The notes beneath the pieces are model-generated. The model saw nothing but the letters and a program-made list of their open reading frames with translations, was not told where the DNA came from and ran no database searches. A program made the position numbers and the translations under genes. Of a stretch of 64,000 nt of DNA, positions 3,248-57,922 are shown in pieces (position 1 is the stretch's first letter; each line of letters begins with the position of its first letter). The stretch comes from Lactiplantibacillus mudanjiangensis (GTDB taxonomy: Bacteria; Bacillota; Bacilli; Lactobacillales; Lactobacillaceae), in the NCBI RefSeq assembly GCF_005405385.1, contig NZ_BJDY01000003.1:558001-622000 (forward strand). The letters are read 5' to 3'.

Positions 3248-3882
3248 ATAGCCGCCTGCGTCAGCCAGTGATTCTGCCGGCTGTGGGGACCGGTTCCAGC
3301 CCAAAGTCGGGCTTTCACCTCGCTTTTGAGCCTAGCCAAAATCGCTAGTCTCAAAAGGCGTCCACATCGTAAAGTCCGGCAAAAGCATCCGGACTTTACG
3401 ATGTTTTCACGGCCGGCGCCATCACAGGCTGACTTCGACTATATGTTGATTTATATTTCAATTTGGTTGATGTTTGATCATCATTTGAATAGTCTTAACA
3501 GCGTTTCAGTTCTGATTGGCGAACAGGTAGGCCGAGCATAAATAGTATTAGAAAAAAATCGAGATTCTAAGCACAGTTGCTTAGGATCTCGATTTTAGTT
3601 CAAGTACTAAAGGTCGAAAGATAATTATTGGCGATAGAAATTATATCAGTACAGGCCGGCGTTCGATTGCATTGTGGCCGTTAAATAGTTTAACAATCAT
3701 CATAACCGAGAGTGAGCCCATATTGAGCCCAGCCGTGGGAGCTCTTAGCGATTTATCGCTTAGAGATTGGCGCTTTTGAAACGCGGATTAAGCGGTTCAA
3801 AACGACGGTTCAGACCGCTTTTTGGCTGAACCGGTCCGCCCACAGCGTTCCAGCTCAAGGTGGGCGAACGGTAGGTGGCAAG
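3248..3882 (+). repeat. Composite intergenic repeat R1 (part A, spacer with terminator, part B)
   Basis: Part A (stem 3260-3433) opens with GTCAGCCAGTGAT and closes with ATCACAGGCTGAC. It contains inner hairpins CTAGC/GCTAG flanked by CTTTTGAG/CTCAAAAG, and ATCGTAAAGTCCGG/CCGGACTTTACGAT. Part B (3702-3882) starts ATAACCGAGAGTGAG and ends GGTAGGTGGCAAG. The two are separated here by a longer spacer that contains a terminator. Together they fill the 750-bp gap between lplA and the next operon; no credible gene lies inside. Nine other copies occur in this window. Confidence 0.85.
3556..3597. terminator. Strong bidirectional hairpin, likely displaced lplA terminator
   Basis: ATCGAGAT-CTAAGC pairs with GCTTAG-ATCTCGAT around ACAGTT, with A- and T-runs on both sides. 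The string AAAAATCGAGA also occurs right after the lplA stop (about 3204), as if repeat part A had inserted into the terminator region. Confidence 0.7.
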
Positions 3883-3949
3883 CATGACTATTTTTGCTCG
3901 ATGAATACTTACCTCGTTAACGATTATTGCTAAAAAGGAAGGTTCAACT

Positions 3950-10276: not shown

Positions 10277-10334
10277 TAAAAGCTACTACTAGACATCAAA
10301 CTTGTGATTGATAGTCTAATAGTAGCTTTTATTA
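10277..10334. terminator. Bidirectional terminator between HTH pseudogene and GNAT relic
   Basis: AAAAGCTACTA-CTAGAC pairs with AGTCTA-TAGTAGCTTTT around an 18-base loop. A- and T-runs on either side make it usable in both directions. Confidence 0.75.
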
Positions 10335-10405
10335 TACCAAGTTAGCGGTACGAATCATTTTCAGATAGGGCGTTTGATTGAAAATCAACGGTTCACCACG
10401 CGTTG
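10332..10405 (-). pseudogene. 3' relic of a second GNAT acetyltransferase
   Basis: Read on the minus strand this encodes GEPLIFNQTPYLKMIRT followed by ANLV and a stop. It matches the C-terminus of the intact GNAT gene at 13338-13778 (GKPFIFNQTPHLKMICV) at most positions. The rest of the gene is missing; the sequence upstream of it passes into a transposase relic. It is the remains of a homologue or of an older duplicate, cut off by an insertion-deletion event. Confidence 0.7.
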
Positions 10406-13292: not shown

Positions 13293-13340
13293 GAATAAAC
13301 GGATCGTTAATGGTTACCAGTTAACGATACGTTTTTATTA
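13293..13340. terminator. GNAT-side terminator (right copy of the flanking repeat)
   Basis: AAACGGATCGTTA pairs with TTAACGATACGTTTTT. It matches the ackA terminator at 9867-9916 over almost its full length. It marks the right border of the accessory insert. Confidence 0.75.
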
Positions 13341-13778
13341 TGGCAGCTCAGCGACGCAAATCATTTTCAGATGGGGTGTTTGGTTGAAAATAAACGGTTT
13401 ACCGACTGCATGGAAGTTGTAACGCTCGTAAAACGCTTGAACTTGAATTTGGGCTTCAATCTGAATCGGTTCCACGGGAAAGCGGTCTTTGGCAACTGCT
13501 AAGATCTGAGTCATCAGGGCGGCCCCTAAATGTTGCCCGCGCTGACTGGCATCGACGACGACCCGGCCAAAGGATAAATGATCGTCTTCTTGAAAAACTC
13601 GTGCATATGCAATTATTTTACCGTTGTGCATCTTAAAAATATGTATCGCGGTTAGATCAATTTCATCGACTTCTTGATAAATACGTTGTTGCTCAACAAC
13701 GAACGTTTTGACGCGTAAGTTATAAATGGCGTATAATTCAGAAGTGGTTAATTCAGTGAATGTTTTGCTTTGCCACAT
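13338..13778 (-). CDS. GNAT family N-acetyltransferase (ElaA-like)
   Basis: The 146-aa protein begins MWQSKTFTELTTSELYAIYN and shows the ElaA-type signature LRVKTFVVEQQ. It has an acetyl-CoA-binding segment SQRGQHLGAALM near residue 87. The C-terminus reads FYERYNFHAVGKPF. It probably acetylates a small amine or protein N-terminus in the cytoplasm. ATG 13778 is preceded by AAAGGACG; the longer frame begins inside that site. It is divergent from a MarR gene across a palindromic operator. A relic of a homologue lies at 10332-10405. Confidence 0.85.
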   Translation of the reverse strand: MWQSKTFTELTTSELYAIYNLRVKTFVVEQQRIYQEVDEIDLTAIHIFKMHNGKIIAYARVFQEDDHLSFGRVVVDASQRGQHLGAALMTQILAVAKDRFPVEPIQIEAQIQVQAFYERYNFHAVGKPFIFNQTPHLKMICVAELP

Positions 13779-15525: not shown

Positions 15526-15776
15526 GATCATCCGGACTAACGATGTTTGCACGGCTGTTTCTGGTTAATCTTGTGGATATTAATTAGTAACCAGTATAAC
15601 CGAGAGTGAGTCCACATTGAGCCCAGCCGTGGGAGCTCTTAGCGATTTATCGCTTAGAGCCTGGCGTTTTTGAAACACGGGTTTGGTGGTTCAAAACGAT
15701 GGTTCAGACCGCTTTTTGGCTGAACCAGTCCGCCCACAGCGTTCCGGCTCAATGTGGGCGAACGTTAGGTGGCAAG
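15526..15776 (+). repeat. Composite repeat R2 (end of part A plus complete part B)
   Basis: It retains the A-end fragment around TCCGGACTAACGATG, the linker ending in ATAACCGAGAGTGAG, and a full part B ending TTAGGTGGCAAG. It fills most of the gap between the CPBP gene and potD. Nothing else is visible there apart from the potD terminator. Confidence 0.85.
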
Positions 15777-15815
15777 CAGATCTATTTTTAACCTTTAGCT
15801 AGCGATATTTCGAGA

Positions 15816-20923: not shown

Positions 20924-21254
20924 GGTCGTCACCTAATTTCTTTAAGATTACTGAATTCATTCACTTGTAAACGAATTCACAACTTAAGTATAGCATGTCG
21001 GTGGCAAAAGCGACATGTCGTTGACCATTTTTTCAGTTACTGATGAAGTTTGGCTACTTTGAAAGGAAACTAACCAATCAAGCGAGGTATAATGAGTGTA
21101 CGTTGTTACGATAGAATTGACTGAAGGTTGAAAGTTAATGATCACAATGAATGTAAGACTAACAGCGATTTAGACAACGCTAAATTAGTCACGATTGCCA
21201 GCCAGCACTATTACCGGCTAATATTGGTTCTGTAAAGCTTTTTTACACTATAGT

Positions 21255-21437
21255 TATAGCCGAAAGTGAGCCCATATTGAGCCAAGCCGTGGAAGTCTCT
21301 TAGCGATTTATCGCTTAGAGACTGGCGCTTTTGAAACGCGGTATTGGCGGTTCAAAACGATGGGCGAGACCGTCCTTTGGCTCGACCAGTCCGTCCACAG
21401 CGTTCCGGCTCAATGTGGGCGAACGTTAGGCGGCAAG
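21255..21437 (+). repeat. Repeat R3 (part B only)
   Basis: It is a part B copy from ATAGCCGAAAGTGAG to GTTAGGCGGCAAG. Its 3' hairpin reads GGGCGAG...CTCGACC where R1 has GGTTCAG...CTGAACC, a set of compensatory changes. Apart from this copy and the GNAT ribosome binding site I see nothing in the gap 20924-21506. Confidence 0.85.
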
Positions 21438-21506
21438 CATGACCGTTATATCAGTGATTGTTGACCTAAAATATCTTTCAACTTTTAGAGAATTGAGGAA
21501 AAATAA

Positions 21507-22034
21507 ATGAAATTATCGACTTTACAAGCTGAATTGCCTAATTTTAAAGTTAAAGTCTTAACTGCGGCGGATCTGGCTGACTTACTGGCGTTGGAACAAA
21601 GCAATCCAGCCTATCGACAGTCATTGGGGGCGGGTGAAATCACCCTAGCAGAAATTCAAGCAGATCTAGTGGCCCATCCTGAGACGGTAACGGCCGAACA
21701 AAAACAAGTCTTCGGGTTTTATTTGGCAGGACACTTAGTGGCGATGGTGGATGTGCTCAGCCGGTATCCCAAAGCCGATTTCATGTTTATTGGATTGTTG
21801 ATGGTTGGTGCCGATTATCAACGACGTTCAGTGGGAACGGTGGTCATGATGGGTCTAATGCAGGCAGCTCTAAAGAGCAATATTCATTGCTTGCAGTTAA
21901 CCCGAGTGACTGCGGATGCTGGTGTGGCCGCGTTTTGGCGTAAGCTGGGCTTTGAAGACGGTGATCAGTTATTTTTACCGTTAGCGCCAAGTGGTCGCTT
22001 AGCGGTGACGACCATGACTCGTGTACTGGTTTAA
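21507..22034 (+). CDS. GNAT family N-acetyltransferase
   Basis: The 175-aa protein has the GNAT core: FGFYLAGHLVAMVDVL (beta strand), then FIGLLMVGADYQRRSVGTVV with the acetyl-CoA loop QRRSVGT (~112-118). FWRKLGFEDGDQ closes the fold. The acceptor is unknown. ATG 21507 follows TGAGGA by 8 bases. The gene is monocistronic and follows repeat R3 directly. Confidence 0.85.
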   Translation: MKLSTLQAELPNFKVKVLTAADLADLLALEQSNPAYRQSLGAGEITLAEIQADLVAHPETVTAEQKQVFGFYLAGHLVAMVDVLSRYPKADFMFIGLLMVGADYQRRSVGTVVMMGLMQAALKSNIHCLQLTRVTADAGVAAFWRKLGFEDGDQLFLPLAPSGRLAVTTMTRVLV

Positions 22035-26785: not shown

Positions 26786-27649
26786 ATGTCATTTGTAAAT
26801 GCTGTTGATATGACACAAGACGCATACAAGAACCATTACGCTATTGGTGCGTTCAACACTAACAACCTTGAATGGACTCGTTGCATCTTAAAGGGTGCCC
26901 AAGATACTAACACCCCTGTTATTATCCAAGTTTCAATGGGTGCTGCTAAATACATGGGCGGCTACAAATTAGTTAAGCATTTAGTTGCTGATACTATGGA
27001 AAGCATGAACATCACTGTTCCTGTTGTTATGCACTTAGACCATGGTAACTACGAAGCAGCTAAAGAATGTATCGAAGCTGGTTACTCATCAGTTATGTTC
27101 GATGGTCATGACTTGCCATTTGCCGAAAACTTAGAAAAGACTAAGGAAATCGTCAAATTAGCACATGCTAAGGGCATCTCTGTTGAAGCCGAAGTTGGTT
27201 CAATCGGTGGTGAAGAAGACGGTATCATCGGTGAAGGTGAATTAGCATCTGTTGAAGAAGCTAAACAATTAGCTGACACTGGTATCGACATCTTGGCTGC
27301 TGGGATTGGTAACATTCATGGTAAGTACCCAGAAAACTGGACTGGCTTACATTTCGAACGTTTACAAGAAATCTCAGATGCTGTTAAGATGCCAATGGTA
27401 TTACACGGTGGTTCTGGTATTCCTAAGGACCAAATCGTTAAGGCCGTTAAGATGGGTATCAGCAAGGTTAACGTTAACACTGAAAACCAAGTTGCATTTG
27501 CTAATGCTACTCGTGCTTACATCGAATCTGGCGCAGACCAAATCGGTAAGGGCTACGACCCTCGTAAATTATTAGCACCTGGTAAGAAAGCTATCGTTGA
27601 TGTTGTTTCATCACGTATTGGCTGGTTCATGACTCCAGAAGCTAAATAA
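26786..27649 (+). CDS. fba: Class II fructose-bisphosphate aldolase
   Basis: The 287-aa zinc enzyme cleaves fructose 1,6-bisphosphate into the two triose phosphates. Marks are IGAFNTNNLEWTRCIL, the metal- and substrate-binding VVMHLDHGNYEAAKECIEAG, AEVGSIGGEEDG, the second metal site GIGNIHGKYP and VLHGGSGIPKDQI. Codon choice is clearly more biased than in the neighbours (GGT, AAC, GAA, TTC), as expected for an abundant glycolytic protein. A strong AGGAGG precedes ATG 26786. It is monocistronic. Confidence 0.97.
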   Translation: MSFVNAVDMTQDAYKNHYAIGAFNTNNLEWTRCILKGAQDTNTPVIIQVSMGAAKYMGGYKLVKHLVADTMESMNITVPVVMHLDHGNYEAAKECIEAGYSSVMFDGHDLPFAENLEKTKEIVKLAHAKGISVEAEVGSIGGEEDGIIGEGELASVEEAKQLADTGIDILAAGIGNIHGKYPENWTGLHFERLQEISDAVKMPMVLHGGSGIPKDQIVKAVKMGISKVNVNTENQVAFANATRAYIESGADQIGKGYDPRKLLAPGKKAIVDVVSSRIGWFMTPEAK

Positions 27650-32727: not shown

Positions 32728-32790
32728 TGGATTCCTTTAGGTTGAAAAATAAGTATGACGATAAAACCTTTACTATCCCTGTTTTAGGTC

Positions 32791-32889
32791 ATGCTAAATT
32801 AACCACCTACGTCAGTCAGTGATTCTGGTTAGTTTGCGGATGCTAATTAGGTTTGTGATCACTAATTTAGGCGAACGTCAGATGGCAAG
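32791..32889 (+). repeat. Deleted composite repeat R5
   Basis: The 5' end of part A (GCTAAATTAACCACCTACGTCAGTCAGTGATTCTG) is joined through a linker-like GCGGATGCTAATTAG...GTGATCACTA to the 3' end of part B (GGCGAACGTCAGATGGCAAG). Both interiors are missing. This shows that A, linker and B behave as one unit. Confidence 0.75.
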
Positions 32890-35215: not shown

Positions 35216-35619
35216 AGTACCTCCGCCAGGCAGTGATTCTGCCAGCTGTGGGGACCGGTTCCAGCCAAAGATCGGGCTTCCACCTCGCTTTTAAGCCTAG
35301 CCCAAATCGCTAGTCTCAAAAGTCGTCCACATCGTAAGCCCGGAAAAAATCATCCGAACTAACGATGTTTTCACGGCCGGCGCCATCACTGCCTGACTCC
35401 GGTTGTATCGTGTTTTAGTAATCATGATATCAGCTCTACAGCCGAGAGTGAGTCCACTTTGAGCTCAGCCGTGGGAGTCACTTAACGATTTATCGCTTAG
35501 TGACTGGCGCTTTTGAAACACGGGCTTGGTGGTTCAAAACGACGACCTAGACCGCTTTTTGGCTAGGCCGGTCCACCCACAGCGTTCCGGCTCAATGTGG
35601 ACGAACGGCAGGCGGCAAG
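35216..35619 (+). repeat. Composite repeat R6 (parts A and B)
   Basis: Part A runs from GCCAGGCAGTGAT to ATCACTGCCTGAC, part B from CAGCCGAGAGTGAG to CAGGCGGCAAG. Outer A arms (CAGGC/GCCTG) and B arms (GTCCAC/GTGGAC; CCTAG/CTAGG; AGTCACT/AGTGACT) differ from the other copies yet stay complementary. It fills the gap 35190-35630. Confidence 0.88.
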
Positions 35620-35632
35620 ATTCAATTTTTAG

Positions 35633-45550: not shown

Positions 45551-45947
45551 GTACCTCCGCCAGCCAGTGATTCTGCCGGCTGTGGGGAACGGTTCCAGCC
45601 AAAGTGCGGGACTCCATCTCGCTTCTAAGCCTAGCCAAAACCACTAGTCTTAAAAGTCGTCCACATCGTAAGTCCGGAAAAACCATCCGAACTAACGATG
45701 TTTGCACGGCCGGCGCCATCACTGGCTGGCTCCGGACAGTTCACTATGTGTCAATCTAGCGATCACTATTATAACCGAGAGCGAGTCCACATTGAGCCCA
45801 GCCGTGGGGGTTCTTAGCGATTTCGCTTAGCCTGGCGCTTTTGAAACGCGGGTTTAGCGGTTCGAAACGACGGATCAGACCGTTTTTTGGCTGAGCCGGT
45901 CCATCCACAGCGTTCCGGTTCAAGGTGGGCGAACGGTTGGTGGCAAG
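45551..45947 (+). repeat. Composite repeat R7 (parts A and B)
   Basis: Part A runs from GCCAGCCAGTGAT to ATCACTGGCTGGC, with the outer arms changed in a compensating way from R1 (GTCAGCC/GGCTGAC). Part B runs from ATAACCGAGAGCGAG to GGTTGGTGGCAAG. It fills most of the space between the putative RNA and the laccase promoter. Confidence 0.88.
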
Positions 45948-46151
45948 CATGACTATTTTCGATAGGTGAATACTTAACCTAGCAAAAAAATATGGTTAAA
46001 AAGTGATTTTCAACCTTTAATTATAGAAGAAAACGGTTGCTTAATAATCGTTGACACTCAATTGAAACAATTCTAAACTGGACGTAGAGTTAACGGTTGC
46101 TAACTCCGGTTATCAATATAGGATGTTTAGAATTTTAGAGGGGATGTCACA

Positions 46152-51370: not shown

Positions 51371-51841
51371 GTGAAGCTTGATTTTTCAGTGGCGGTGCAC
51401 AGCTTGCTATACTTAGATGAGCATCGACCAAATAAAATATCTAGTCGGGAACTTGCACAATCATTGCATTTAAATCCAGTGATGATTCGCAATATTTTAT
51501 CAATTTTACATAAGCAGGGATATTTGGTGGGGACAGTTGGAAAAAATGGTGGCTATCAACTGGAACAGTCGCTAGCAGCGATGAATCTGGGTGATCTGTA
51601 TGATTTAACGATTCCACCGACCTTGAGTTATGCTCGCTTTATCACCGGGCCATCGCAAACGGAGACGTCGGCCGATCAGTCGGCAATTGCGGCCAATATT
51701 AGTGAGACGTTAACGGATTTGTTTACGGTTGCGGATCGTGAGTATCGGGCTTATTACCACCAATTTACGATGGCAGATTTAAAACGCGATATTCAGCATC
51801 ATGGGTATTTTTTACAACGTGAAGCAGATTTAGATTCTTAA
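51371..51841 (+). CDS. Rrf2 family transcriptional regulator without cysteines
   Basis: The 156-aa protein has the Rrf2 N-terminal winged helix: VAVHSLLYLDEHRPNKISSR, ELAQSLHLNPVMIRNILSIL and VGKNGGYQLE (wing). The three cysteines that bind an Fe-S cluster in IscR/NsrR are absent; the protein has no cysteine at all. So it belongs to the cluster-free YwnA/CymR-like branch. GTG 51371 follows GGGAGG by 7 bases. Confidence 0.88.
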   Translation: MKLDFSVAVHSLLYLDEHRPNKISSRELAQSLHLNPVMIRNILSILHKQGYLVGTVGKNGGYQLEQSLAAMNLGDLYDLTIPPTLSYARFITGPSQTETSADQSAIAANISETLTDLFTVADREYRAYYHQFTMADLKRDIQHHGYFLQREADLDS

Positions 51842-51900
51842 TTAAAGGCTGAAAGTTGGTTTTGACGGTAAAAAATTTAGCAGCATTAATTTGAGTTATA

Positions 51901-52314
51901 CTAAATTGGTCACCTCCGTCAGCCAGTGATTCTACCAGCTGTGGGGACCGGTTCCAGCCAAAGTACGGGCTTCCACCTCGCTTTTGAGACTAGCCCAAAC
52001 CGCTAGTCTCAAAAGTCGTCCACATCGTAAAGTCCGGAAAATCCATCCGGACTAACGATGTTATCACGGCCGGCGCCATCACTGGTTGACTCCGGTTATC
52101 ACGTGGATGCTAATCAATTAGTGATCACTATTATAACCGAGAGTGAGCCCGCATTGAGCCCAGCCGTGGGCCTCTCTTAGCGATTCATCGCTTAGAGACT
52201 GGCGCTTTTGAAACACGGGTTGGGTGGTTCAAAACGACGGTTCAGACCGCTTTTGGGCTGAAGCGGTCCGCCCACAGCGTTCCGGCTCAATGTGGGCGAA
52301 CGGTAGGTGGCAAG
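51901..52314 (+). repeat. Composite repeat R8 (parts A and B)
   Basis: It begins CTAAATTGGTCACCTCCGTC, contains all inner hairpins of part A, a linker ending GTGATCACTATTATAACCG, and part B ending GGTAGGTGGCAAG. It is the most regular copy in the window and fills the gap after the Rrf2 gene. The rest of that gap (52315-52533) holds only AT-rich sequence. Confidence 0.9.
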
Positions 52315-52533
52315 TATGACTATTTTTTTGATCGGTGAACACTTGACCTATCAACAACTGTTATTGAAAGCAACTTTTTGACCTTTAGATTCTTAACTAA
52401 AATAGCGGACTTGTTTGTAATTTAAGGTGACTTGATTTAAGAACCTTAATTTAAAACGAGTTCGCTGTTTTTGATTGTCAGCGCCTAAGTGACGTGGTAT
52501 CTTTGTTCACATATTCAATGAGGGGGCCTGGCC

Positions 52534-52845
52534 ATGACCAGCTGTTTAGCAATCGTTCATGAAGAAAGACGTTATCAAGAATTGGCAGAAGATCGATATT
52601 GGGTGGAATCAGCCGCCTTTTGGGGCGTTGATGGCCGCGGAAATACGGTAAATGAAGCAATCGGTGATTTTTTGACGCATCTGGTGCAATATTGTCATGA
52701 TTATTATCAACGGGACCTCTGGCAGCTTGACAATCGGTTATTACAATTGGATCAAGTCGATGCGGTATTGGCCTATGTTAAAGCCGGTAAATCGCCGGCA
52801 CCGTTGCTACAATTTAAGGTTGTACCTGCAACCGCTACGGCTTAA
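52534..52845 (+). CDS. HicB-like small protein, orphan
   Basis: The 103-aa protein has an N-terminal segment like the HicB/UPF0150 fold: DRYWVESAAFWGVDGRGNTV and NEAIGDFLTHLV, where HicB has Y-x-V-x-x-P-D-L-x-G-x-x-x-G-x-T-x-x-E-A. No HicA toxin gene is nearby and there is no DNA-binding tail. ATG 52534 follows GAGGGGG. It may be a stand-alone HicB-fold protein; the similarity is weak. Confidence 0.5.
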   Translation: MTSCLAIVHEERRYQELAEDRYWVESAAFWGVDGRGNTVNEAIGDFLTHLVQYCHDYYQRDLWQLDNRLLQLDQVDAVLAYVKAGKSPAPLLQFKVVPATATA

Positions 52846-57491: not shown

Positions 57492-57519
57492 GCGTACCGA
57501 TTAATTAAAAATAGCGTTG

Positions 57520-57922
57520 CTTGCCACCTACCGTTCGCCCACATTGAGCCGGAACGCTGTGGGCGGATCGGTTCATCCAAAAAGCGGTCTGAACCGTCGT
57601 TTTGAACCACCCAACCCGTGTTTCAAAAGCGCCAAGCTCTAAGCGATAAGAGCTTCCCACGGCTGGGCTCAATGTGGAGGCACTCTCGGTTATAATGATG
57701 ACTAGATTGATCAACGTTATAACCGGAGTCAGCCAGTGATGGCGCCGGCCGTGAAGACATCGTTAGTCCGGATGGTTCTGCCGGACTTTACGATGTGGAC
57801 GACTTTTGCGACTAGCGATTTGGGCTAGGCTCAAAAGCGAGGTGGAAGCCCGAACTTTGGCTGGAGCCGGTCCCACAGCCGGCAGAATCACTGGCTGACG
57901 TAGGTGGTCAATTTAGCATAGC
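57520..57922 (-). repeat. Composite repeat R9 (inverted orientation)
   Basis: Part B comes first, in reverse (CTTGCCACCTACCGTTCG to CTCGGTTATAA), then the linker, then part A in reverse, ending GGCTGACGTAGGTGGTCAAT. It is a complete copy on the minus strand and fills the gap after the SDR gene. Confidence 0.9.

Follow-up and report, generated by a model that had tools for sequence, protein, structure and literature searches.

Twin outward-facing folded modules carried by IS4-family MITEs of Lactiplantibacillus mudanjiangensis

Dispersed between the genes of Lactiplantibacillus mudanjiangensis is a repeat whose copies differ in sequence while the arms of its apparent helices change together, and the question that it raises is what has kept these arms complementary: selection on a folded RNA, the use of a DNA cruciform in transposition, or no selection at all. 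The initial annotation, made for one window (the whole stretch of DNA considered here, 64,000 nucleotides, positions 558001-622000 of contig C3 in a genome of 3.29 Mb), offered the first two readings for seven copies of what it called part B. All seven are located where it put them, the copy at 57520 being on the minus strand. Its account of B as a folded unit stands; what it missed is that part A is an inverted module of the same kind and that the repeat has transposon ends.

Copies in the window and their mobile ends

The features of the window, with R1 to R9 denoting the copies, are these:

3256..3444, minus strand: A module of the R1 region (nhmmer, 135.4 bits)
3607..3620, plus strand: IS4-type terminal repeat with one mismatch, lying in the R1 region between its A and B modules (TIR scan)
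3691..3894, plus strand: B module with flanks (R1), model core 3715-3866 (nhmmer, 235.0 bits; cmsearch, 169.5 bits)
15585..15788, plus strand: B module (R2), core 15609-15760 (cmsearch, nhmmer)
15785-15798: end-like sequence with two mismatches, at R2
21121..21488, plus strand: B-only MITE, TIR to TIR, with the target duplication AGAATTGA flanking both ends
21246..21449, plus strand: B module (R3), core 21269-21421 (cmsearch, nhmmer)
26786-27649: fructose-bisphosphate-aldolase-like protein (Pfam; best named match L. daowaiensis, 98%)
32735..32827, plus strand: left-outer-end fragment with a degenerate TIR (three mismatches), the outer layer and CACCTACG..., without module core (inverted repeat, TIR scan)
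35219..35412, minus strand: A module (R6), which served as query of the A search
35428..35630, plus strand: B module (R6), core 35451-35603 (cmsearch, nhmmer)
45554..45736, minus strand: A module (R7) (nhmmer)
45761..45959, plus strand: B module (R7), core 45784-45931 (cmsearch, nhmmer)
46007-46020: end-like sequence with two mismatches, at R7
51842..52388, plus strand: complete MITE (TIR, A on minus, spacer, B on plus, TIR), with the duplication ATTCTTAA at 51834-51841 and 52389-52396
51913..52104, minus strand: A module (R8) (nhmmer)
52122..52326, plus strand: B module (R8), core 52146-52298 (cmsearch, nhmmer)
57508..57703, minus strand: B module (R9), inverted with respect to the other window copies, core 57536-57680 (cmsearch, nhmmer)
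57714..57904, plus strand: A module (R9) (nhmmer)

Because the terminal repeat at 3607..3620 separates them, the A and B modules of the R1 region may belong to two elements. A 71-base direct repeat, 80% identical between 10327-10397 and 13333-13403, lies in the window outside the MITE copies.

The repeat is carried as cargo by a MITE belonging to an IS4-family insertion sequence. The elements are about 320-547 bp in size, complete copies are bounded at both ends by CTAAAGGTTGAAAG, and with at most one mismatch this end occurs at 63 forward and 69 reverse sites in the genome, the reversed control at none. Target duplications of 7-9 bp, some of them imperfect, accompany 9 of 20 end pairs on C3 (1.3% with swapped flanks) and 15 of 28 on contigs C4 and C7 (4.4%). 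Two relatives, L. daowaiensis and L. songbeiensis, have at the place of 21121-21488 a gap whose length is consistent with an empty site, the difference being roughly one element and one duplication; in L. songbeiensis the gap matching the element at 35.2-35.6 kb is short as well.

The exact end was found in 12 of the 21 genomes of the genus. In one of these, G004, a same-ended element of 1565 bp has a 451-codon ORF with Pfam DDE_5 and DDE_Tnp_1 matches, and the NCBIfam model for IS4 family transposase (NF049925, cut-off 250) gives 481.6 bits there and 460.2 bits in G001. Same-ended insertion sequences of 1567 bp (G001) and 1559 bp (G012) are flanked by the duplications ATAGGAG and GACTTTA, respectively; the G004 copy has no clear target duplication. 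A transposase protein match is present in seven of the 21 genomes, with the gene looking intact in G004 and G001, in pieces in G012 (two frames), G013 and G017, and reduced to a short piece in G014, while the L. mudanjiangensis genome itself retains only a remnant in which both gene ends are present and the middle is missing, one terminal repeat lying beside it. The MITEs, which are between genes and far shorter than the 451-codon ORF, have no transposase of their own. Module-free end-like sites on C3 were mostly inside called ORFs, and none then had a second end and a transposase. The G004 insertion sequence (L281, 635-2199) starts inside the end of a 209-codon ORF (16-645), an apparent insertion into a longer gene, and five contigs of G004 and seven of G007 begin 13-77 bases from a terminal repeat, as if the assembly broke at the insertion sequence.

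That the modules are cargo follows from the part-B model finding no module in the three same-ended insertion sequences, together with the presence of an outward module pair in each of the three G001 elements with exact ends. The modules themselves are about 120-170 nt, with a spacer of 38 to 425 bp between A and B (26 pairs). Read on the opposite strand, part A of the full-element consensus has the architecture of B in diverged form, RNAalifold gives a multibranched fold for 54 A copies of this genome, and a model built from B alone detects A at one locus (L171) with 35.8 bits (E 3e-7). The census on C3 comprises 33 A+B elements, 13 with B only, five with A only and one A-A; that on C4 and C7 comprises 48, 13 and seven of the first three kinds. 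All 81 A+B elements in these 1.52 Mb of the genome face outward (33/33 on C3 and 48/48 on C4 and C7), as do 27 of the 28 distinct two-module loci of relatives, a count made after dropping same-place duplicates and both-strand matches; L185 is the exception.

Fold, covariation and strand sense

The B fold is cloverleaf-like and has 55 pairs, arranged as P1 (14 bp), P2 and the hairpins P3, P4 and P5. In the seven window copies 95.7% of cells are paired in this structure, and the joint change of paired arms that had been claimed for them is borne out by double-sided change in ten of the 55 pairs, where shuffling gives a mean of 4.5, none of 500 shuffles reaches ten and slid partners give 0-2; one of five measures, the number of further pair types, was not unusual, as 66 of the 500 shuffles reach it. 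Unconstrained folding of R1 and R6 comes close to the structure, with z of -4.1 and -3.1. Most arms had been quoted correctly: GTCCAC/GTGGAC in the terminal helix of R6, TTCAG/CTGAA (R1, R2, R8), CCTAG/CTAGG (R6) and CGAG/CTCG (R3) in the 3′ hairpin, and GTCACT/AGTGAC in the central hairpin of R6. The pairing GCCCAC/GTGGGC, said to form the terminal helix in most copies, has to be corrected, since a 5′ arm GCCCAC occurs in none of the seven: the arm is GCCCAT in R1 and R3, GTCCAC in R2, R6 and R7 and GCCCGC in R8, and the start of R9 differs. As these 5′ arms mostly give one G-U pair against GTGGGC, R6 is the end of a path from C-G by way of U-G to U-A.

With 30 B copies from the whole genome, 96.0% of cells are paired and 20 of the 55 pairs are changed on both sides, against 9.0 with shuffling and 1-7 in slid controls. 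Covariation was assessed with a tree-based null of our own as stand-in for R-scape (FastTree, parsimony and substitutions re-placed by site rate). In 58 B copies of the genome the all-pairs test gave one significant pair, which lies in the structure, and a test restricted to structure pairs gave 4 of 55, so formal support within one genome is modest, the power there being low. The corresponding all-pairs and structure-only results are 0 and 2/64 for A of this genome, 0 and 3/63 for A of genus g16, and one pair and 6/60 for B of g16. The g16 B set consists of 19 of 26 copies, the other seven being without the motifs used for cutting out, and its alignment and folding by MAFFT and RNAalifold, independent of the model alignment, yielded the same architecture. 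G005 is outside the per-group tests, fixed cutting motifs having retrieved 0 and then 1 of its 19 modules.

A much broader sample comes from the multi-genus alignment, which has 94 distinct sequences among 104 aligned matches, these having been both found by and aligned to the part-B model, with a few rows antisense at the same place. Paired cells amount to 95.9%, and all 38 significant covarying pairs are structure pairs; when the structure pairs alone are tested, 47 of the 55 reach significance. Folded without constraint, 81 of the 94 sequences recover 80% or more of the model pairs. A purine-rich flank of P1 is partly kept in several genera (AGYCGGA-like on the 5′ side, GGAG..CGGCA-like on the 3′ side), and CGGCA-like tails, counted as four 5-mers, accompany 53 of 111 modules of relatives against about 12 shuffled and 6 further out.

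Which strand carries the fold can be judged from the wobbles that it tolerates. In the sense of each module G-T cells exceed A-C cells in this genome, by 127 to 36 for B and 174 to 39 for A, as well as in g16 (70 to 2 for B, 36 to 9 for A) and in other species (149 to 46). Events on the trees lean the same way, Watson-Crick pairs changing to G-U rather than to A-C in ratios of 66:31 for B of this genome, 108:29 for the multi-genus set and 96:38 for A of this genome, and in g16 by 14 to 8 (A) and 10 to 2 (B); unpaired positions lack a matching transition bias (27 vs 38 for B, 146 vs 146 for A). The bias persists on terminal branches, at 49:24 and 77:34, and these branches are long because the family is only partly sampled. 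In 72 of the 94 sequences the sense strand gives a better fold than the complementary strand. Selection on a folded single strand, in the outward sense of each module, is highly probable, and we infer that the strand in question is most probably RNA.

One alternative has the modules act as DNA, folding as single strands or as a cruciform recognised in transposition or replication. They do travel within a transposable element, and single-stranded DNA also tolerates G-T wobbles, so that the strand bias alone would also suit single-stranded DNA. A cruciform would be symmetric and predicts G-T equal to A-C, and is disfavoured by the excess of G-U over A-C in the sense of each module, seen in both B sets and in A of this genome; its use in transposition is disfavoured further because the same-ended IS4-family insertion sequences (three loci) hold no module match and because module copies in other genera sit in loci without those ends. 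There are also two short forms, C3:33117-33435 (319 bp) and C3:52905-53226 (322 bp), in which the outer A end has replaced the 5′ arm of P1 and is joined to B from P2, the rest of A being gone; their P1 arms have ceased to be complementary, but each form retains its two ends and imperfect target duplications. A DNA-level structure is accordingly unlikely. Of the interpretation first offered, a folded strand under selection and membership of a mobile element are supported and the transposition cruciform is disfavoured.

Position among genes and a possible role

No element among 120 has over half its length within a called ORF, the genes having been called by a simple script rather than taken from curated annotation. 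Convergent gaps hold 20 of 52 elements on C3 and represent 98 of 602 gene pairs there (p ~1e-4), which was replicated on C4 and C7 (29 of 68 elements against 93 of 660 gene pairs, p ~1e-8), and divergent gaps are under-represented (7 of 52 and 4 of 68 elements). In tandem gaps B is the sense module in 9 of 15 and 15 of 22 A+B elements. Lone modules in tandem gaps had at first given a clue to orientation, with one sense and nine antisense; the prediction was fixed before its test on new contigs, where six sense and seven antisense modules amount to chance, and it was dropped. The B-only MITE at 21121-21488 is preceded by a TATAAT at 21088 and followed by a GNAT-type gene (start codon at 21507), in whose leader B would be sense if that TATAAT is its promoter. 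A promoter pattern scan of one region gave two promoter-like sites with 1.4 expected, and a pair of internal promoters is not a general feature, some spacers measuring no more than 38 bp.

The enrichment between convergent genes and the presence of strong hairpins on either strand would suit modules that are bidirectional transcription terminators. Terminator-like sites, however, are absent from 51700-52600, lie within 60 bp, on either strand, of 48 of the 120 elements, and before elements are no commoner than at control gene ends (32/143 vs 33/151), counts that leave intrinsic terminators unsupported as a general explanation. An efficient terminator at 21121-21488 should also silence the gene at 21507, on the same proviso about the TATAAT at 21088. 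Termination as the function of the modules is thus improbable.

With selection on RNA as the preferred reading, the outward arrangement suggests a different use of transcript ends. A transcript entering an A+B element from any direction would have the distal module transcribed in sense, and since the distal module is always the sense one any transcript would gain a strongly folded 3′ domain. The element may then be an orientation-independent RNA element at transcript ends, serving protection, processing or insulation, and such a 3′-end role would let a high copy number between genes be tolerated. This RNA-level role is a guess, with the balance of chances somewhat against it, and it is held so low because the convergent excess, which such a role fits, would equally result from selection for promoter avoidance, the clue from lone modules was not replicated and the terminator-like sites are uninformative. 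Taken as a whole, the best explanation, one that we lean towards without great assurance, is an IS4-family MITE with twin folded modules acting at transcript ends.

Spread across the family and comparison with known repeats

The part-B model has at least 145 matches in this genome (the number scored) and matches in 19 of the 21 genomes of the genus, this one included. The covariance-model search of relatives that had been suggested was fruitful, with matches in 45 of 201 genomes of the family and in 11 of 40 genera, the present genus included, under strict filters and with at most 15 candidates scored per genome; under strict filters and with at most 10 candidates scored per genome there were none in 298 other genomes of the class. 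Named records with matches, from 68 loci searched, are those of Companilactobacillus nantensis, C. formosensis and C. mindensis, of Lactiplantibacillus songbeiensis and of Pediococcus ethanolidurans. One C. nantensis locus (L121) has eight module matches, one of them partial, in 20.9 kb, and in L. mudanjiangensis neither A nor B is matched anywhere in C3:129240-250824, a stretch of about 121 kb, the elements otherwise being about 14 kb apart on average.

In Lactiplantibacillus, and also in one Pediococcus record, the mobile ends that carry the module are of IS4 type. With at most one mismatch the CTAAAGGTTGAAAG end is present in that record and, among 33 model loci of the same genus, in six, of which two duplicate a place already counted and one (L191) comes from G005; it is absent from 32 loci of g16, 24 of other genera and 20 of G005, and many same-genus copies are also without a recognisable end. 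When module ends are taken as element ends in g16, only 1 of 12 flank pairs shares at least six bases (0.8% with swapped flanks). Plasmid and phage records gave no match to part B, and a genome-contig collection none to an exact 25-mer, records of or near this genome having possibly been left out of both. Rfam has no match in the window, and in five loci one match alone is above threshold, a tRNA lying outside the modules; the remaining matches, one of which overlaps a module, are far below it. The twin outward module of the Lactobacillaceae could be an RNA entity in its own right that predates, and is independent of, any single transposon, keeping its fold in at least 11 of the 40 sampled genera while its sequence turns over, and riding different mobile ends. 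It would then represent a new class of structured, high-copy RNA served by a cellular partner of its own; this is speculative, and we regard it as doubtful.

Site rates bear on whether complementary arms might arise without selection. On terminal branches B of this genome has 1.66 changes per paired site and 2.09 per unpaired site, a slight slowing; the multi-genus set is reversed in direction (9.85 and 8.29), and A of this genome, with 2.04 and 5.28 when outer flank columns are counted as unpaired, is the one set with a clear slowing. The rates of B and of the multi-genus set speak against a strong constraint. Template switching in imperfect palindromes could make arms complementary as a mutational artefact, and the failure of paired sites to change more slowly in the multi-genus set would fit, as would the frequent change of arms as blocks, for instance P5 in R3 and R6, which is what quasipalindrome correction would give. 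Such correction is strand-symmetric, yet G-U is in excess, and it should heal mismatches, yet T33 x T48, C20 x A131 and A68 x G82 are invariant or nearly so in 30 copies, so that an origin of this kind is quite unlikely. That the modules are neutral debris of a dead MITE, with a fold inherited rather than maintained, is very improbable, as the annotation had held: the genome does retain only a remnant of the insertion sequence, and 67 of 133 pair-changing events on terminal branches of its B copies break pairs, but double-sided changes go beyond shuffles, the G-U bias extends to terminal branches and the same fold is matched in 11 of the 40 sampled genera.

Structure-conserved MITEs are already known, and a twin outward fold kept across genera was not found described; a search of the open-licence PMC literature likewise gave no description of this element. 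To our knowledge bcr1-bcr3 of the Bacillus cereus group have no twin outward modules, the modular layout of BOX and RUP differs from that of the present element, and BIMEs contain inverted pairs of REP units. The REPs themselves, as described in PMC3733652, are palindromic extragenic units of 20-40 bp, a description that multibranched folds of about 120-170 nt do not fit. Closer in kind are bcr1-bcr3, which in the account of PMC3446304 are high-copy intergenic MITE-like repeats, often in UTRs or between operon genes, with bcr3 correlating with mRNA decay; the likeness to the present element (high-copy, intergenic, MITE-like) is one of description. BOX and RUP of Streptococcus pneumoniae are likewise folded, high-copy, intergenic and MITE-like in the treatment given in PMC10969869; the absence of part-B matches concerns 298 other genomes of the class, among which the pneumococcus is not necessarily included. 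With the MITEs of bacterial insertion sequences, as reviewed in that same source (PMC10969869), the element has in common that it is short, non-coding and intergenic, with TIRs, a target duplication and the ends of an autonomous IS4-family element; it differs in that its interior is not derived from the insertion sequence, as far as tested with three of these, and holds a covarying module pair that also occurs in other genera without these ends.

The fold across genera points to a putative, hitherto unrecognised family of folded RNA. What sets it apart is one fold kept across genera of a family, with up to about 100 or more matches per genome, arranged as an outward pair and absent from Rfam. 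The element would explain some of the intergenic DNA of lactobacilli, for the annotation of which a covariance model is now available, and it offers a testable case for selection acting on an RNA structure that a transposon carries, its abundant paralogous copies with natural compensatory changes being a ready-made mutant library.
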